Of a DNA stretch of 41,032 nucleotides, positions 36,195 to 41,002 are shown piece by piece; the first letter of the stretch is position 1, and each line of letters begins with the position of its first letter. The stretch is from a virus: IMG/VR virus record IMGVR_UViG_3300046534_001481, positions 1-41,032 of that record. The stretch is one strand, 5' to 3'. Both the position numbers and the translations under genes were made by a program. Under the pieces are notes generated by a model. It saw nothing but the letters and a program-made list of their open reading frames with translations, ran no database searches and had not been told where the DNA came from.

Positions 36195-36223
36195 ATTATA
36201 TCACGGCTATCGCGCCATGTCAA
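36195..36223 (-). promoter_or_regulatory. Consensus early sigma70 promoter
   Basis: TTGACA (36218-36223), 17 bases, TATAAT (36195-36200), then ACATGTATAAATTAATTGAG. Drives the cluster from 36164 leftward. Confidence 0.87.
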
Positions 36224-36363: not shown

Positions 36364-37752
36364 TTATCGGTTAGATCGTGCGCGGATTGTCGAGAAATCG
36401 TCTTCAATCAGCAATTCGCCGTTTCTGTACACTTCGCGCAGAATGTTCTCACGACTTCCAAGTAAGTATTTACGAATCGATTCGTACCCATTGTCTGTCT
36501 TAATAAGGGCTTGTTCACCTGCCTTGCTTGCCTTTCCTTGGTCACCAACGGGGCGTTTGTAGACGTCCTGTCGAACTCCATTGATTACAGTGCTATTTGC
36601 TTTCATTGCGAACTTGAATGTATCGCGGTTGATTCCTTGCAACAGTGCACCACCCATACCGAACGCCAGATTATCAAGAGTCATGTTGGCTTCGATCAGA
36701 TTAGCAAGCAATACCTTGATGCTATCCTTATTGATTCCATCACCTTGAATAACTCTAACACAGTCAGGAAGGGTTCGAAAACCTTTATCATTTGTGGTAT
36801 AACCAAATTTCTCCATCAATATTTCGATGATTTCGATTGGTACGATAGTTGGGTCACCAGAGTCGGGACGAATAACAACTGTACCGCCACTCGCGATAAC
36901 TTCATCTTTTAACACTCCACCCCAAATATTTCTTGCGGCATTGTAGATATCATATGAATCGGAAACACAAGCGAATACTTTACCAGGGCCGCCAAATTTA
37001 ACCAACATATTTCTATATGCTTCAACTTCTTTATCTTCGCCCCAACTTGTGATCGTGCTATGTTCGGTAGCGGGAATACTGAATCCTGCCATATGTTCAT
37101 TGTAGTAACGACGACCCGCAACAAGTGCTGGAACTGTGTCTGTACCCATGAAATTCACAAGATGAGCAAGGCCGCCCATTGCTGCACTTTCATTACTTGA
37201 CACACCGCGACAACCAAAGTCATGCAATTTGAAATCAAGACCTTGAACCGAACCAGTCGTATCATAAGTCGCCTTCATCAATTGTTTGATTTTCCAGCTG
37301 TTAGTTGCAACAGTAATTGGGTACCAACCACCATCACGAAGTAACATTGTTTCGATGAAAGAGGTTAACCATGCGAATCGAGGGTCAGTATTTGTAACTT
37401 GAAACAAGACATTTCTCAATGGGATAACCATACCTTCAGGTACAGCTTCAATGCTTAATGGAAGTTTACCACCCATTTCATTGACAACGATAAGCCAATC
37501 TTCGTTGAATGGTTCGCCGTGTTCTGGAATGTATGATCGTGCTTCGTCTACATCAGCCATTGTGATAGGGGTAGTCAGATACTTTTTGGCAAACATCTGC
37601 ATACCAAATTGAAGTGATTCTGTATAATCGGGGTCATCAGAACCACGGGCTTCGCCATATGATGTGATGTATTCTGTTCCAGCAGGAATCTGTGGAGCGT
37701 GGCTGTATTTGTAACTGTCTGCCATCAGAATGAAATTTACGTTGGTATTCAT
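36364..37752 (-). CDS. nadV: Nicotinamide phosphoribosyltransferase (NAMPT/NadV)
   Basis: 462 residues, normal family length. Makes NMN from nicotinamide and PRPP. Diagnostic segments: DSYKYSHAPQIPAGTEYITS, FKLHDFGCRGVSSNESAAMG, GFSIPATEHSTITSWGEDKE (with the catalytic-type His), RPDSGDP (phosphoribosyl binding), VIQGDGINKDSIK and FGMGGALLQGINRDTFKFAM. The leader carries a hairpin and the TATAGGGAGACTATA cassette shared with the other NAD genes. Own promoter at 37818-37846. In KVP40-like phages the same enzyme feeds phage NAD+ synthesis. Confidence 0.96.
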   Translation of the reverse strand: MNTNVNFILMADSYKYSHAPQIPAGTEYITSYGEARGSDDPDYTESLQFGMQMFAKKYLTTPITMADVDEARSYIPEHGEPFNEDWLIVVNEMGGKLPLSIEAVPEGMVIPLRNVLFQVTNTDPRFAWLTSFIETMLLRDGGWYPITVATNSWKIKQLMKATYDTTGSVQGLDFKLHDFGCRGVSSNESAAMGGLAHLVNFMGTDTVPALVAGRRYYNEHMAGFSIPATEHSTITSWGEDKEVEAYRNMLVKFGGPGKVFACVSDSYDIYNAARNIWGGVLKDEVIASGGTVVIRPDSGDPTIVPIEIIEILMEKFGYTTNDKGFRTLPDCVRVIQGDGINKDSIKVLLANLIEANMTLDNLAFGMGGALLQGINRDTFKFAMKANSTVINGVRQDVYKRPVGDQGKASKAGEQALIKTDNGYESIRKYLLGSRENILREVYRNGELLIEDDFSTIRARSNR

Positions 37753-37756
37753 GTTA

Positions 37757-37807
37757 TATAGTCTCCCTATATTGTGTATTTTAAAAATAAGTGAGGTCCA
37801 CCCTCAC
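37757..37807 (-). promoter_or_regulatory. nadV: nadV leader: GTGG-loop hairpin plus ribosome-site cassette
   Basis: Hairpin GTGAGG-GTGGA-CCTCAC (37791-37807) close to the predicted mRNA 5' end, 19 AU-rich bases, then TATAGGGAGACTATA (37757-37771) and TAAC-ATG. The cassette is a 5-bp inverted repeat with the Shine-Dalgarno GGAGA in the loop. Confidence 0.65.
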
Positions 37808-37817
37808 CTATACAACC

Positions 37818-37846
37818 ATTATATCATACTAGGTTGCGTTTGTCAA
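37818..37846 (-). promoter_or_regulatory. Consensus sigma70 promoter for nadV
   Basis: TTGACA (37841-37846), 17 bases, TATAAT (37818-37823). The -35 overlaps the end of the nadM-nudix gene region. It lacks the ACATGTATAAATTAATT box of the early-gene promoters. Confidence 0.87.
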
Positions 37847-37849
37847 CCA

Positions 37850-38893
37850 TTATTTTGTAGGTAGTGCAAGCATTGTGTTGATAATATGAAAATGATCTTC
37901 GTACATCACATTTTCCATTCCTTTGAATTCCGACAAAGTGAACCATCGAGCTTCAAATGTTTCAGAACCATCACCTTTAACTTTAGGTAAGGACTGTGTT
38001 GGGTCGAGGGTCATACGAAAAGCATGAGTGATTGTTCGACCCCGAGTAGATCGTGTTGGTGAATCAAAGACTTCCCTTGCATCAATTGCTCGATGAAGTA
38101 CCTTTTCTGGAAGTTTCAAGCCGGTTTCTTCATGAAGTTCTCGCGTTACCGCTTTTTCAATTCGTTCATCAGGGTCGACAAATCCACCTGGGATAGCCCA
38201 TAAACCACGTCCGGGATATCCGGCACGTCGAACCAATAATACATGACCCGATTGAACCACAACCGCATCAACGGTTACAAATGTAGGTGCGTATGGTGCA
38301 CCTGCCCATGCAGCAAGATATGACTGAACAAAGACCCATTCCTGCTTTAACTCTGCATATTCTGGCGTTATCAGAAATGAACACAAATAATCGTAGACGT
38401 TATCAGTAATGACACCCTTGGCGAAATGGTGATCGCCTGTGAATAATAAACGCCGAATTTTAGTTGCGTCGATGCTTTCACCGTCTTCAGGATACAAAGG
38501 TTCTTCAATGAAGTCCCAATGTTTGAAATAGTTAAGGTAGAATGAACTTGAATCTTTACGGTTACCTATGATTCCGATCTTTTCCGAGTTATGAATCTGG
38601 GCGACAAGACCTACAGTAGCACCAACTTCTGCTATCCAAGCATTATCATCGTAAGTGTGGTCACCAATAGGACTGATAATCAAATTGGCGTCTGGTTCAA
38701 ATGATTGGCGAATCATCAATTTTCGTTCATCATAGGTAAATGGGTTTTTAATAGATCGAGGACCGTGTGGTGAACCTATCAACACAAGGACTTTATCGGA
38801 AATTGACAAAGCGTGCTCTATTGTTTTTTGGTGTGCAATATGGAATGGCTGGAATCTGCCGATGTACACAATTAAATCATATTCTTTTTTCAT
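37850..38893 (-). CDS. nadM: Bifunctional NMN adenylyltransferase / Nudix hydrolase
   Basis: 347 residues, the length of bacterial and phage NadM-Nudix fusions. N-terminal nucleotidyltransferase: GRFQPFHIAHQKTIEHAL (GRFQPxHxxH) and SIDATKIRRLLF. C-terminal Nudix box GGFVDPDERIEKAVTRELHE ETGL fits GX5EX7REUXEEXGU exactly (~residues 240-263). It joins NMN and ATP to NAD+; the Nudix half probably cleans up ADP-ribose or related nucleotides. KVP40 NatV has the same design. Its start is preceded by a pseudoknot-forming leader. Confidence 0.95.
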   Translation of the reverse strand: MKKEYDLIVYIGRFQPFHIAHQKTIEHALSISDKVLVLIGSPHGPRSIKNPFTYDERKLMIRQSFEPDANLIISPIGDHTYDDNAWIAEVGATVGLVAQIHNSEKIGIIGNRKDSSSFYLNYFKHWDFIEEPLYPEDGESIDATKIRRLLFTGDHHFAKGVITDNVYDYLCSFLITPEYAELKQEWVFVQSYLAAWAGAPYAPTFVTVDAVVVQSGHVLLVRRAGYPGRGLWAIPGGFVDPDERIEKAVTRELHEETGLKLPEKVLHRAIDAREVFDSPTRSTRGRTITHAFRMTLDPTQSLPKVKGDGSETFEARWFTLSEFKGMENVMYEDHFHIINTMLALPTK

Positions 38894-38946
38894 TATAGTC
38901 TCCCTATAGTGGTTATGTTACGACAATAGAACCACTCCATTGTCGC
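38894..38946 (-). promoter_or_regulatory. nadM: nadM leader: H-type pseudoknot next to the ribosome-site cassette
   Basis: On the minus strand, CGACAAT (38939-38945) pairs with ATTGTCG (38921-38927), and AGTGGTT (38930-38936) in that loop pairs with AACCACT (38908-38914). Connecting loops are 2, 2 and 6 nt, close to an ideal H-type pseudoknot. TATAGGGAGACTATA (38894-38908) and the ATG follow at once, so folding would sit against or block the ribosome site. The GTGG loop and cassette recur before nadV and pnuC. Confidence 0.7.
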
Positions 38947-38957
38947 GAGGTACTTCT

Positions 38958-39158
38958 TTAAATTTTATTTACTAGTCGTCTTACATCTTTCATAGCGGCA
39001 ATACAGATATCTCCTGTATACATACCATTTTCTTGATCGTCAGACCACGCTTCGACCAATGCAACTGTTCCTTTGAGGTGTTCAAATTGCAATTCTAAGA
39101 ACTGAACATATGCATCATTGATTGTAAGACCGATATACTTTGGTGGTTTTTGTGTCAT
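38958..39158 (-). CDS. 66-residue protein inside the NAD operon, unknown
   Basis: TINDAYVQFLELQFEHLKGT VALVEAW, then GDICIAAMKDVRRLVNKI: two helices, no known motif. The ATG overlaps the nadR stop (TAATG), so it is made with the NAD enzymes. It could be an accessory subunit or an unrelated insertion; no function can be assigned. Confidence 0.7.
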   Translation of the reverse strand: MTQKPPKYIGLTINDAYVQFLELQFEHLKGTVALVEAWSDDQENGMYTGDICIAAMKDVRRLVNKI

Positions 39159-40204
39159 TATACGTTTCCTAATAAATTACTAACGGCTTGTTCTGCCAAT
39201 CCGGTTCGTAGTTCCCAGTCAGGTAATCCATCGAGAGTTCTAAAATCTGCGATGCCAACGAAATTCCTTTTACATTTACTAAGATATGCAACCAAATCTG
39301 TATAAAATAACCAACGTTCTTCATATTCTGGTAGAATTCGGGTTCCATCATCAGTCCATTCTTTATATGGCTTCAACAATATGTACAGATCAAACTTGTC
39401 CAATGTTGCTTCATATAATAGATTAGATTCAAGTTCCTTGTCGCGTTGTTTCATATATATCTTGCTGAATAAATGTGTTGTGAATGATTCCGTATCTGAT
39501 ACAGTGTTCTGGTGTGTCGATTGTGCAGCGTGAAGCAAGGTTTTCTGCCCTGCAATAATTGCATAGAAATCACTGGCGTCAAGATCATTATTCCTGACTT
39601 CGGATAATGTACGACCGTATTCAGGCACCAAACCCATATTAAACTTCACGGCAAGATGATTTGTCAATGTTGATTTTCCGGTACTTTCAGGTCCGATGAC
39701 TACAATGTTTCGTTGATAATATGGTTTAACAACATCTGGTAAATAATCATAATAACCTGTAGGATTGTTTCTAACCTTAGTTCCCGAAACGTGAAATTGA
39801 TCACGATTCAAGTCTAATGGAATCCAACGAGCATTAAGTTCCTTTGCCAGTCGTTCACCGTATGCGTCATTTGTGAATACAGCATCGATAGATGAAACCA
39901 CAATTCGGCTAATCAATTTGACCCAACGGTACCAATAATCATCATCAATGGCCGTACCATTTTCATCCAATTCTGTATCACCAATATAATCGATCAATTC
40001 AATAATATTGACATTCGAATCCTTATATTGTTCTCTAAGCCAATTCCCTCGGGTGGATAAAGGGATAGGATCATCCTCTGCACCAGTTAACATAACGTCA
40101 ACATTCTTACAGGTCGCCGCGGCGTGATCAATCATGAGTTTATGACCATTATGAAATGGCATGAACTTTCCTAAACAGAATCCTTGCTTATATGCTTTTC
40201 TCAT
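39158..40204 (-). CDS. nadR: NadR-like NMN adenylyltransferase / ribosylnicotinamide kinase
   Basis: 348 residues from ATG 40204, set by the ATGA overlap with pnuC. N-terminal nucleotidyltransferase: GFCLGKFMPFHNGHKLMIDH (HxGH motif). C-terminal kinase from ~residue 175: Walker A GPESTGKST and DTESFTTHLF, as in NadR RNK domains. The N-terminal HTH repressor domain of enteric NadR is absent, so it acts as enzyme only. It turns nicotinamide riboside imported by PnuC into NMN and then NAD+. Confidence 0.93.
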   Translation of the reverse strand: MRKAYKQGFCLGKFMPFHNGHKLMIDHAAATCKNVDVMLTGAEDDPIPLSTRGNWLREQYKDSNVNIIELIDYIGDTELDENGTAIDDDYWYRWVKLISRIVVSSIDAVFTNDAYGERLAKELNARWIPLDLNRDQFHVSGTKVRNNPTGYYDYLPDVVKPYYQRNIVVIGPESTGKSTLTNHLAVKFNMGLVPEYGRTLSEVRNNDLDASDFYAIIAGQKTLLHAAQSTHQNTVSDTESFTTHLFSKIYMKQRDKELESNLLYEATLDKFDLYILLKPYKEWTDDGTRILPEYEERWLFYTDLVAYLSKCKRNFVGIADFRTLDGLPDWELRTGLAEQAVSNLLGNV

Positions 40205-40812
40205 TTCTGTTCCTGATATGCTTTGTACCAAGCGATTCCACCCATTGTTGCCAGAACTAAGAATACAACATACAGACCACTAACAACAACCAAACCTTTT
40301 GCGAAGTATACACCGATCGCGATTATATCCATTGCAACCCATAAGTACCACGATTCTACAAATTTCTTGATCATTAAGATTTGTGCAGCAATGCTCATCC
40401 AAGTCGTTAATGCGTCGATATATGGAAATGATGCGTCTGTGAAGTTTGACATATACATTCCGGTCAGACCTGCCATTACCAAGATGTTCAATACGATTAA
40501 TACTAAAGTGGAGGTGTTCATTGATTCGACAGGAAGGTCGTCGGATGCATTCGGACCTTTCTTCATCCACCAATACCAACCTAAGAATTGCACAGGTAGG
40601 AAAAAGGCGATGTTCAGCCATGCGTCACTATATAATTGATAATGCCAGAAAAGCGGACCAAGAAAGGCCACGCCGATAACACCCCAGAACCATGTCCAGA
40701 TGTTTTGTTTTATTGCGAGGTATACACAGGTCGCGGATGCGATTGTACCGGCTAATTCGACATAGCCCCATGTGTGATTGAAATAATCGATTACTACTTG
40801 TAGAATGTCCAT
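40201..40812 (-). CDS. pnuC: PnuC-like nicotinamide riboside transporter
   Basis: 203 residues with about seven hydrophobic segments. The PnuC pattern is visible in SATCVYLAIKQNIWTWFWGV IGV, WLNIAFFLPVQFLGWYWWMK and FVESWYLWVAMDIIAIGVYF AKGL. It would move nicotinamide riboside across the inner membrane, trapped by NadR phosphorylation. First gene of the NAD operon, with its own promoter, hairpin and the shared cassette; stop overlaps nadR (ATGA). Confidence 0.93.
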   Translation of the reverse strand: MDILQVVIDYFNHTWGYVELAGTIASATCVYLAIKQNIWTWFWGVIGVAFLGPLFWHYQLYSDAWLNIAFFLPVQFLGWYWWMKKGPNASDDLPVESMNTSTLVLIVLNILVMAGLTGMYMSNFTDASFPYIDALTTWMSIAAQILMIKKFVESWYLWVAMDIIAIGVYFAKGLVVVSGLYVVFLVLATMGGIAWYKAYQEQK

Positions 40813-40861
40813 TATAGTCTCCCTATAATTGAGGTTGAAATCAAGAACAGACCACCTGTTC
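40813..40861 (-). promoter_or_regulatory. pnuC: pnuC leader: GTGG-loop hairpin plus ribosome-site cassette
   Basis: Hairpin GAACAG-GTGGT-CTGTTC (40845-40861), 17 bases, then TATAGGGAGACTATA (40813-40827) and ATG. A short pseudoknot AGGT/ACCT between the loop region and the downstream CAACCTC is possible, parallel to the nadM leader. Confidence 0.65.
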
Positions 40862-40870
40862 CTAATGTTT

Positions 40871-40883: not shown

Positions 40884-40912
40884 ATTATAACACAAACTAA
40901 AGGGTTTGTCAA
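40884..40912 (-). promoter_or_regulatory. Consensus sigma70 promoter for the NAD operon
   Basis: TTGACA (40907-40912), 17 bases, TATAAT (40884-40889), then ACATGTATAAATA. Lies between the tRNA gene and pnuC. Confidence 0.88.
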
Positions 40913-40927
40913 CACATATTTTTGAAT

Positions 40928-41002
40928 TGGAAGGGGCGCTAGGGTTCGAACCTAGGATACCAGATTCAAAATCTGGCGTGTTTCCGGCTACACTACGCCC
41001 CC
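40928..41002 (-). tRNA. tRNA-Gln, anticodon UUG, with encoded CCA
   Basis: Full cloverleaf: acceptor GGGGGCG with CGCCCCT (one G-U pair at position 1-72), D arm GTGT/ACAC, anticodon stem CCAGA/TCTGG with loop TTTTGAA (anticodon TTG), T arm CTAGG-TTCGAAC-CCTAG, discriminator U and CCA at 40928-40930. It would supplement decoding of CAA. The U73 and the G1-U72 pair differ from the usual G73 of bacterial tRNA-Gln. Confidence 0.9.

Follow-up and report, generated by a model that had tools for sequence, protein, structure and literature searches.

The window analysed here, IMG/VR virus record IMGVR_UViG_3300046534_001481 (41,032 bases), is a genome fragment with genes for a baseplate and for a phage protein that binds single-stranded DNA (phrog_224), and we read the virus as T4-like. 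At its right end, on the minus strand, lie pnuC, nadR, an open reading frame (ORF) of 66 aa, nadM-nudix and nadV. The leaders of pnuC, nadM-nudix and nadV share a layout in which a first hairpin, H1 (loop GUGGU/A), is followed by a second, H2 (TATAG-GGAGA-CTATA), with the Shine-Dalgarno (SD) sequence in its loop, and then by the ATG. This two-hairpin RNA element is real and widespread and, among the sequences searched, stands almost only on phage genes for nicotinamide adenine dinucleotide (NAD+). The features of the locus, in the direction of the minus strand, are as follows.

40884..40912, minus: promoter of sigma-70 type, a perfect TTGACA-N17-TATAAT, ahead of the pnuC leader (a consensus match, not proof of function)
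40840..40866 (core 40845-40861), minus: H1 of the pnuC leader, an extended stem around GAACAG-GUGGU-CUGUUC, from the fold
40813..40827, minus: H2 of the pnuC leader, TATAG-GGAGA-CTATA with the SD sequence in its loop, adjoining the ATG at 40812
40201..40812, minus: pnuC, transporter of nicotinamide mononucleotide (NMN)/nicotinamide riboside (Pfam PF04973, E 9.5e-47)
39158..40204, minus: nadR-like adenylyltransferase/kinase (Pfam AAA_28; phrog_3462, nicotinamide-nucleotide adenylyltransferase)
38958..39158, minus: 66-aa ORF, coupled to nadR by TAATG
38920..38946, minus: H1 of the nadM-nudix leader, CGACAAUGGA-GUGGU-UCUAUUGUCG, from the fold
38894..38908, minus: H2 of the nadM-nudix leader, adjoining the ATG at 38893 (cassette and fold)
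37850..38893, minus: nadM-nudix, bifunctional NMN adenylyltransferase/Nudix (Pfam NUDIX and CTP_transf_like; PDB 2qjo, E 6.4e-79)
37818..37846, minus: perfect sigma-70-type promoter TTGACA-N17-TATAAT before the nadV leader (a consensus match)
37787..37811 (6-bp core 37791-37807), minus: H1 of the nadV leader, AGGUGAGG-GUGGA-CCUCACUU, from the fold
37757..37771, minus: H2 of the nadV leader, 4 nt upstream of the ATG at 37752 (cassette and fold)
36364..37752, minus: nadV, nicotinamide phosphoribosyltransferase (Pfam NAMPT_N and NAPRTase; phrog_448)

The original prediction, made from the letters of this window, had placed before each of the three starts a hairpin with GTGG in its loop and, 12-19 nt further on, the same cassette, TATAGGGAGACTATA. 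Both parts were found as claimed: the cassette is exact at three minus-strand sites, 37757-37771, 38894-38908 and 40813-40827, the 41,032 bases contain no other exact copy and one further site within 3 mismatches of it, and a GTGG-loop hairpin stands upstream of every copy at that spacing. No copy precedes an unrelated gene in the genome fragment read. The coupling of the genes also held, pnuC and nadR overlapping by ATGA (40201-40204) and nadR and the 66-aa ORF by TAATG (39156-39160). Both hairpins belong to the minimum-free-energy fold of all three leaders (ViennaRNA; z -2.7, -3.6 and -3.2). The nadM leader lies inside the gene cluster, with no promoter of comparable strength, and in the nadV transcript H1 would sit close to the 5′ end. 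The 66-aa ORF matched no Pfam or PHROG family and had no homologue among the ORFs of the 109 loci compared below.

Leaders of this type in other phages

Protein searches, from which we took the best 80 of 323 NadM loci and 13 NadV loci, brought together many leaders of the same architecture with other sequences. Their H1 loops are most commonly AUAGA, with AGAGA, AGUGA, GGAGU and others beside it; across phages they fall into the classes AUAGA, AGNGA, GUGG, GGGG and GGAG, and 4- and 6-nt variants also occur. The H2 loops read GGAGU, GGAGA, GGAUU or GGAAC. The exact cassette with a GTGG loop is thus one lineage's form of a wider element. The prediction's definition was too narrow, but its central idea, that of a cis-acting RNA linked to NAD genes, is strongly supported by the covariation, the position at the start codon and the association with nadM, nadV, pnuC and nadA in many phages. 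That the element is cis-regulatory is very likely.

As had been proposed, a covariance model was built from such leaders and used to search phage sequences, where its matches co-occur with nadV, nadM and pnuC. This model, R1, rests on 27 leaders whose rows were picked for pairing, so that their 95.3% of paired positions is biased upward, and the only H1 loops it describes are 5-nt ones like those it was trained on. Run on both strands of 92 sources (790 kb), R1 gave 126 matches at E<=5, all 126 on the gene strand. The pnuC and nadV leaders of the window, which belong to the training set, scored 34.3 bits (40813-40861) and 38.7 bits (37757-37807), and the nadM-nudix leader, which does not, scored 25.0 bits (38894-38941). 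Once the matches in the window, three in number, and the duplicates L139 and L140 at 1977 had been set aside, the ORF following each of the other 121 matches was NadV in 56 cases, NadM in 52, PnuC in one and another ORF in 12.

Among these 12 there is one NadA, one ORF (L066) that overlaps a NadV start, and ten ORFs of 108-215 aa that lie within about 1.1 kb upstream of nadM; none of the six of the ten that were compared with Pfam reached a family's cut-off. At the NadA site (L088 2865-2907) a full element, whose H1 loop is AUAGA, precedes the gene of a phage quinolinate synthase (PF02445), and this site extends the gene set of the element to de novo NAD synthesis. The matches heading ORFs upstream of nadM fall by eye into three families (L092 3629, L098 3628 and L120 3173; L085 3603 and L113 3605; L101 3223, L122 2883 and L117 3285), the L122 match being weak (E 3.4). 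These ORFs may be unrecognised NAD-related genes. At L152 328-369 (G024:155827-155868) a match of 31.4 bits has the SD hairpin and an ATG with no open frame behind them, about 1 kb before nadV; perhaps this is a decayed gene.

The covariation that had been read from the three stems of one genome is weak as covariation; the relatives, however, show that pairing is kept and that both stems covary strongly. In 122 distinct R1 matches 93.2% of the cells are paired, and cells with double changes number 555 vs. 160.4 in shuffled and at most 113 in slid controls, figures that come from an alignment fitted to the R1 model. H1 is constrained in its loop sequence and free in its stem sequence: at 104 distinct sites it takes the form G-AUAGA-C in 70 and C-AGAGA-G in 15. 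G-C pairs make up 18% of the H2 stems vs. 54% of the H1 stems, and an A-U-rich H2 fits expectation because this hairpin must melt for translation. The linkers between the hairpins vary in sequence and, when stems are limited to 6 bp, range in length over 8-19 nt. The trinucleotide AAC just 5′ of H2 is in modest excess (41 of the 104 sites vs. 19 in shuffles), which may be relevant. In three H1 hairpins (L120 3945, L072 5024 and L085 5012) a 2x2 or 3x3 internal loop, seen by eye, separates the lower stem from the apical 3 bp.

A control independent of the model covered the leaders of the 109 protein-homology loci, of the window and of L023, a contig first met in the cassette scan described below. 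Its strict rule demanded one of the listed 5-nt H1 loops, an H1 stem of at least 5 and an H2 stem of at least 4, and the NadM cluster to which it was applied holds 113 ORFs (105 NadM, 4 NadR and 4 unclear). The element was present in 47/110 leaders of the NadM cluster and in 49/100 NadV leaders, where dinucleotide shuffling gave means of 0.15 and 0.4. Of the other plus-strand ORFs with 80 aa or more, 960 in number and many of them surely spurious as ORFs, nine had it (0.67 in shuffles); among the nine are NadA of L088 and PnuC of both L123 and the window. H2 by itself occurs in 82/110 leaders of the NadM cluster, in 80/100 at NadV and in 102/960 at other ORFs (about 72 in shuffles).

When R1 was run on 40 whole phage records, 31 of these yielded matches at E<=1, 54 in all; E was below 0.01 for 38 matches. 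Among the 38, 18 stand before NadM, 17 before NadV and one before PnuC (36/38), including one NadV and the PnuC beyond the loci already read; the remaining two are the site of the 108-aa ORF just upstream of nadM in L092 and G024:155827, which has no ORF. The 16 weaker sites (E 0.01-1) comprise four at NadV, two at ORFs in nad clusters and ten elsewhere, which we take as chance although five of them stand before an ORF. This search was a lossy first look that missed known sites, such as the PnuC of L123, so that its absences are weak: nine of the 40 records gave no match, yet L086, L096 and L126 among them hold an element. One scan of bacterial genome contigs, made with alignment A2, gave no relative, and a restriction to phages would be a tentative reading.

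The cassette outside the window and the element in named phages

An exact scan found 52 copies of the cassette in 51 IMG/VR stretches. Just four of the 52, on two related contigs (L021/L051 and L023), belong to an element at nadM and nadV, whose H1 stems are new and whose H1 loop is GGGGU or GGGGC; in these records (24.9 and 27.5 kb) the cassette with at most 2 mismatches is confined to the element sites. Half of the copies (26/52) lie directly upstream of an unrelated phage ORF beginning ‘MAIAQAMC’ (L004, L009, L011 and 23 other stretches). With four copies in 52 at elements before NAD genes, the exact cassette was rejected as a definition of the element.

Four complete cultured genomes, those of phages DSS3P8, B23, RcXuper and MD18, were chosen because their nad loci carry the element; R1 gave two sites in each, and 8/8 stand before nadM or nadV. 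By gene order, DSS3P8, RcXuper and MD18 look kindred. The hosts of cultured carriers are Ruegeria, Phaeobacter, Rhodobacter, Synechococcus, Burkholderia and Xanthomonas. R1 found no match in KVP40, RB43 and 44RR2.8t in a lossy search, and none at E<=1 in BUCT-ZZ01, BcepSaruman, K64-1 and pEa_SNUABM_49; in these last four it is blank because it covers only 5-nt H1 loops of the training type.

Read by eye, the named phages carry a range of loop variants. BUCT-ZZ01 has the H1 loop AAAGA and the SD loop AAGGA; BcepSaruman has H1 tetraloops AAGA with the SD loop AGGA and one mismatch in its nadV stem; K64-1 and pEa_SNUABM_49 have six-base H1 loops (GAUGUA, GUAGUA, GUUGUA) with H2 loops GGAGUA or GGAGU. 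The H1 loop is AUAGA twice in LucasX and GGGGU at the nadV of OC, and SCTP-2 has the six-base loop GAUAGA before both genes, with H2 unclear. At the nadM of DLP6 both hairpins have the loop GGAGU, and at that of Mesorhizobium phage Cp1R7A-A1 (L199, upstream of 467) both loops are GGUGU and the second hairpin reaches into the start codon, which makes it perhaps the purest case of H1 copying H2. X1 has H2 beneath a long stem with an unlike loop, and no clear tandem was seen by eye in Mx1 or phiM19, the latter having an H2-like stem in nadV only.

A candidate translational operator and its rivals

Within one phage the H1 loop class tends to be the same: it agrees in 51 of 55 pairs from 45 records, against a permuted mean of 28.2 and with none of 2000 permutations as high, the 14 of 126 sites that could not be classed having been dropped. 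Three of the mismatched pairs (L072, L085 and L098) appear mis-registered and read AUAGA by eye, and L079 is a genuine exception; the count is kept as computed. The stems within a phage mostly differ, so its leaders are not fresh copies of one another. In several phages the H1 loop also resembles the SD loop (AAGA/AGGA, AAAGA/AAGGA, GGAGA/GGAGU, GGUGU/GGUGU), a likeness that suggests a dimeric binder.

On trees of the same 59 phages, made with FastTree and with the loop labels of ten rows set by hand, the loop class changes 8 times on the NadM tree (minimum 7) and 11 times on the NadV tree, shuffles giving about 20. We read this as operators that may drift together with a phage-encoded protein, NadM fitting best and common descent contributing. 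The only widely shared genes of the loci are the NadM cluster (107/109) and NadV (99/109). A small neighbour, the 66-aa ORF or another, was rejected as repressor, because the 66-aa ORF has no homologue in the 109 loci and the next plus-strand family reaches only 23 loci; the clusters that recur in 42-55 loci all lie on the minus strand and are presumably antisense shadows.

We consider it probable, if only by a little, that the element is a translational operator in the NAD-salvage leaders bound by a phage protein, possibly NadM-Nudix. H1 would be an anchor hairpin with a short purine-rich loop, and H2 a weak A-U-rich hairpin next to the start codon, with the SD sequence exposed in its loop. 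An RNA-binding protein encoded by the phage would recognise both loops and clamp H2 closed, thereby stopping ribosome loading, and the separately translated NAD genes could be tuned together in this way. Repression, protein binding and the identity of the binder are all inferred. The best single candidate would be NadM-Nudix itself, giving feedback on its own pathway as T4 gp43 does on its own synthesis. The narrower proposal, that NadM-Nudix, which turns NMN into NAD+, moonlights as an RNA-binding translational repressor of nadM, nadV, pnuC and nadA whose recognition drifts with the operator loops across phages of many hosts, is tentative and on balance doubtful.

Several observations weigh against an operator of this kind. 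To our knowledge, neither NadM nor NadV is an RNA-binding repressor. The agreement of loops within a phage could partly come from common descent or from gene conversion of leaders, and the difference of 8 vs. 11 changes is small, coming from FastTree trees with some hand-set labels and without a significance test. The loci were mostly gathered by a NadM query, which makes the ubiquity of NadM partly a matter of ascertainment. Covariation was measured in five ways, two of which (pairs with double changes and further pair types) do not rise above shuffles, being near their ceiling. The loop list of the strict rule was drawn up after viewing the same leaders, though shuffles and other ORFs faced the same list. 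The ‘MAIAQAMC’ copies have a 6-pair hairpin above the cassette (GGTCCG-TGAGG-CGGGTC, loop UGAGG) whose pairing is not assessable among 26 near-identical sequences; because these ORFs carry both hairpins, H2 is no proof of the element even with a second hairpin above it. Among the named phages, Mendera, XacN1, RB43, ACP17 (nadV), RAS14 and Milchi have H2 without the tandem, and no clear tandem was seen by eye at KVP40 nadV, at V09 nadM or in 44RR2.8t, CcrPW, Bambus and RHph_X66.

A very small metabolite riboswitch, in which NAD+, NMN, nicotinamide or ADP-ribose would join H1 and H2 and sequester the SD sequence, is unlikely, although the regulon of nadM, nadV, pnuC and nadA is coherent and the AUAGA loop with its G-C closing pair is identical in many phages (70/104 sites). 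Small RNAs may indeed use the SD within the ligand site, as described for the type III preQ1-I riboswitch (PMC10622847). A fixed ligand, however, hardly explains loops of 4, 5 or 6 nt that differ between phages yet agree within them; the linkers are variable, and no core is visible beyond the loops, bar the modest AAC excess before H2. Inspection by eye showed no conserved pseudoknot; a loop fully complementary to downstream sequence (GUGGU/ACCAC) was noted only in the nadM leader of the window. Searched in permissive E-value mode with Rfam 15, which we take to include both NAD+ riboswitch classes, the NAD region of the window and seven relatives gave only tRNAs above the gathering score, and no family at cut-off in the leaders; sub-threshold matches to cow-rumen-4 (E 8.9, nadV leader) and Fluoride (E 0.072, nadM coding sequence) were taken as chance. 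A protein operator is likelier than a riboswitch, because no conserved core is seen beyond the loops and these vary in type and size between phages and agree within them.

That the structure merely enhances translation constitutively or protects the mRNA as a 5′ structure, with no regulator, is improbable. H2-type hairpins do precede unrelated phage genes too, one family with another hairpin above, and H1 would be near the 5′ end behind the strong pnuC and nadV promoters. The nadM element of the window, however, lies within the gene cluster, few other ORFs carry the tandem (9/960, where H2 alone is found at 102/960 vs. 82/110 and 80/100), and mere stability would not require that the H1 loop be constrained in sequence with the stems free. 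We give similarly little credence, or slightly less, to a host RNA-binding protein, CsrA/RsmA or another, that would bridge both hairpins, the loop classes tracking the host. Two hairpins with GGA in an SD loop resemble the geometry of CsrA targets, and one loop class (L131, L061, L105 and the nadM of DLP6) contains GGA in both loops. Phage-encoded CsrA was rejected, as PF02599 was found in none of 23 element-bearing records and in 3 of 14 control genomes, and such a protein would have to come from the host. CsrA, however, requires GGA, which is usual in H2 but mostly missing from H1 (the commonest loops AUAGA and AGAGA lack it, and only the minority class GGAGU/A has both); it is also a global regulator of the host, and the element stands almost only on NAD genes.

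Known RNA regulators and neighbouring features

The way of working that would be nearest by analogy is the autorepression of T4 gp43. The operator of gene 43 (DNA polymerase) in T4 and RB69 is described as an upstream hairpin with a specific short loop and a sequence overlapping the ribosome-binding site, the loop varying among related phages (UAAC; UAAA in RB49) (PMC3014915). In the NAD-leader element, likewise, a hairpin precedes the ribosome-binding site and further sequence overlaps this site; unlike the gene 43 operator, the element consists of two hairpins, the second of which holds the SD itself in its loop, and stands on several genes of one pathway in many different phages. It also differs from the RegA target, which the same source describes as an unstructured A+U-rich site at the AUG, in being structured.

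The NAD+-II riboswitch (pnuC motif) is described with P1, P1a, a possible pseudoknot and many fixed nucleotides, exclusively from Streptococcus (PMC7749635). Our element shares with it the place in a pnuC leader and the overlap with the ribosome-binding site, but consists of two separate hairpins without a fixed core, in phages. The NAD+-I riboswitch (nadA motif), which also controls NAD genes, is described as two similar tandem domains with the ribosome-binding site in the second; the element resembles it in having two tandem units, the second with the ribosome-binding site, and differs in being only two small hairpins with no Rfam match at the leaders tested. The manA and wcaG motifs of cyanophages are described as phage-borne candidate cis-regulatory RNAs tied to metabolism genes (PMC2864571); they belong to other genes, and the only match was a sub-threshold wcaG in L075 1331-1396, away from the leader.

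One paper states that every NadM phage also has NadV; the words riboswitch and untranslated are absent from it, and the single hairpin it mentions is a protein fold (PMC9503650). In our set NadV gave no match in the records of L133 and L137, possibly fragments. We found no description of the NAD-leader element in the open-access literature, subscription journals lying largely outside the search. Host defences destroy NAD+, and phages rebuild it to overcome them; the means by which this pathway is adjusted is undescribed in the literature searched, and the element suggests an apparently undescribed tuning of viral NAD+ production at the translation level, shared by many phages. A small, widespread, covarying element in cultured phages makes the question directly testable. 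If the binder were NadM, a metabolic enzyme would, unusually, govern a phage regulon of several genes by way of RNA, and the natural loop variants would serve as ready-made tests of specificity. The element may, moreover, help to pick out NAD-related genes among phage ORFs of unknown function.

Beside the nad genes of 23 loci a family of about 160 aa recurs (e.g., L092 near 6507), which we take to resemble a macro-domain (ADP-ribose) protein. In the window, a third perfect TTGACA-N17-TATAAT promoter (36195-36223, minus strand) precedes a 95-aa ORF downstream of nadV; R1, run over the window, gave no element there. A tRNA gene (40931-41002, minus strand; Rfam RF00005, 65 bits) lies just ahead of the pnuC promoter.

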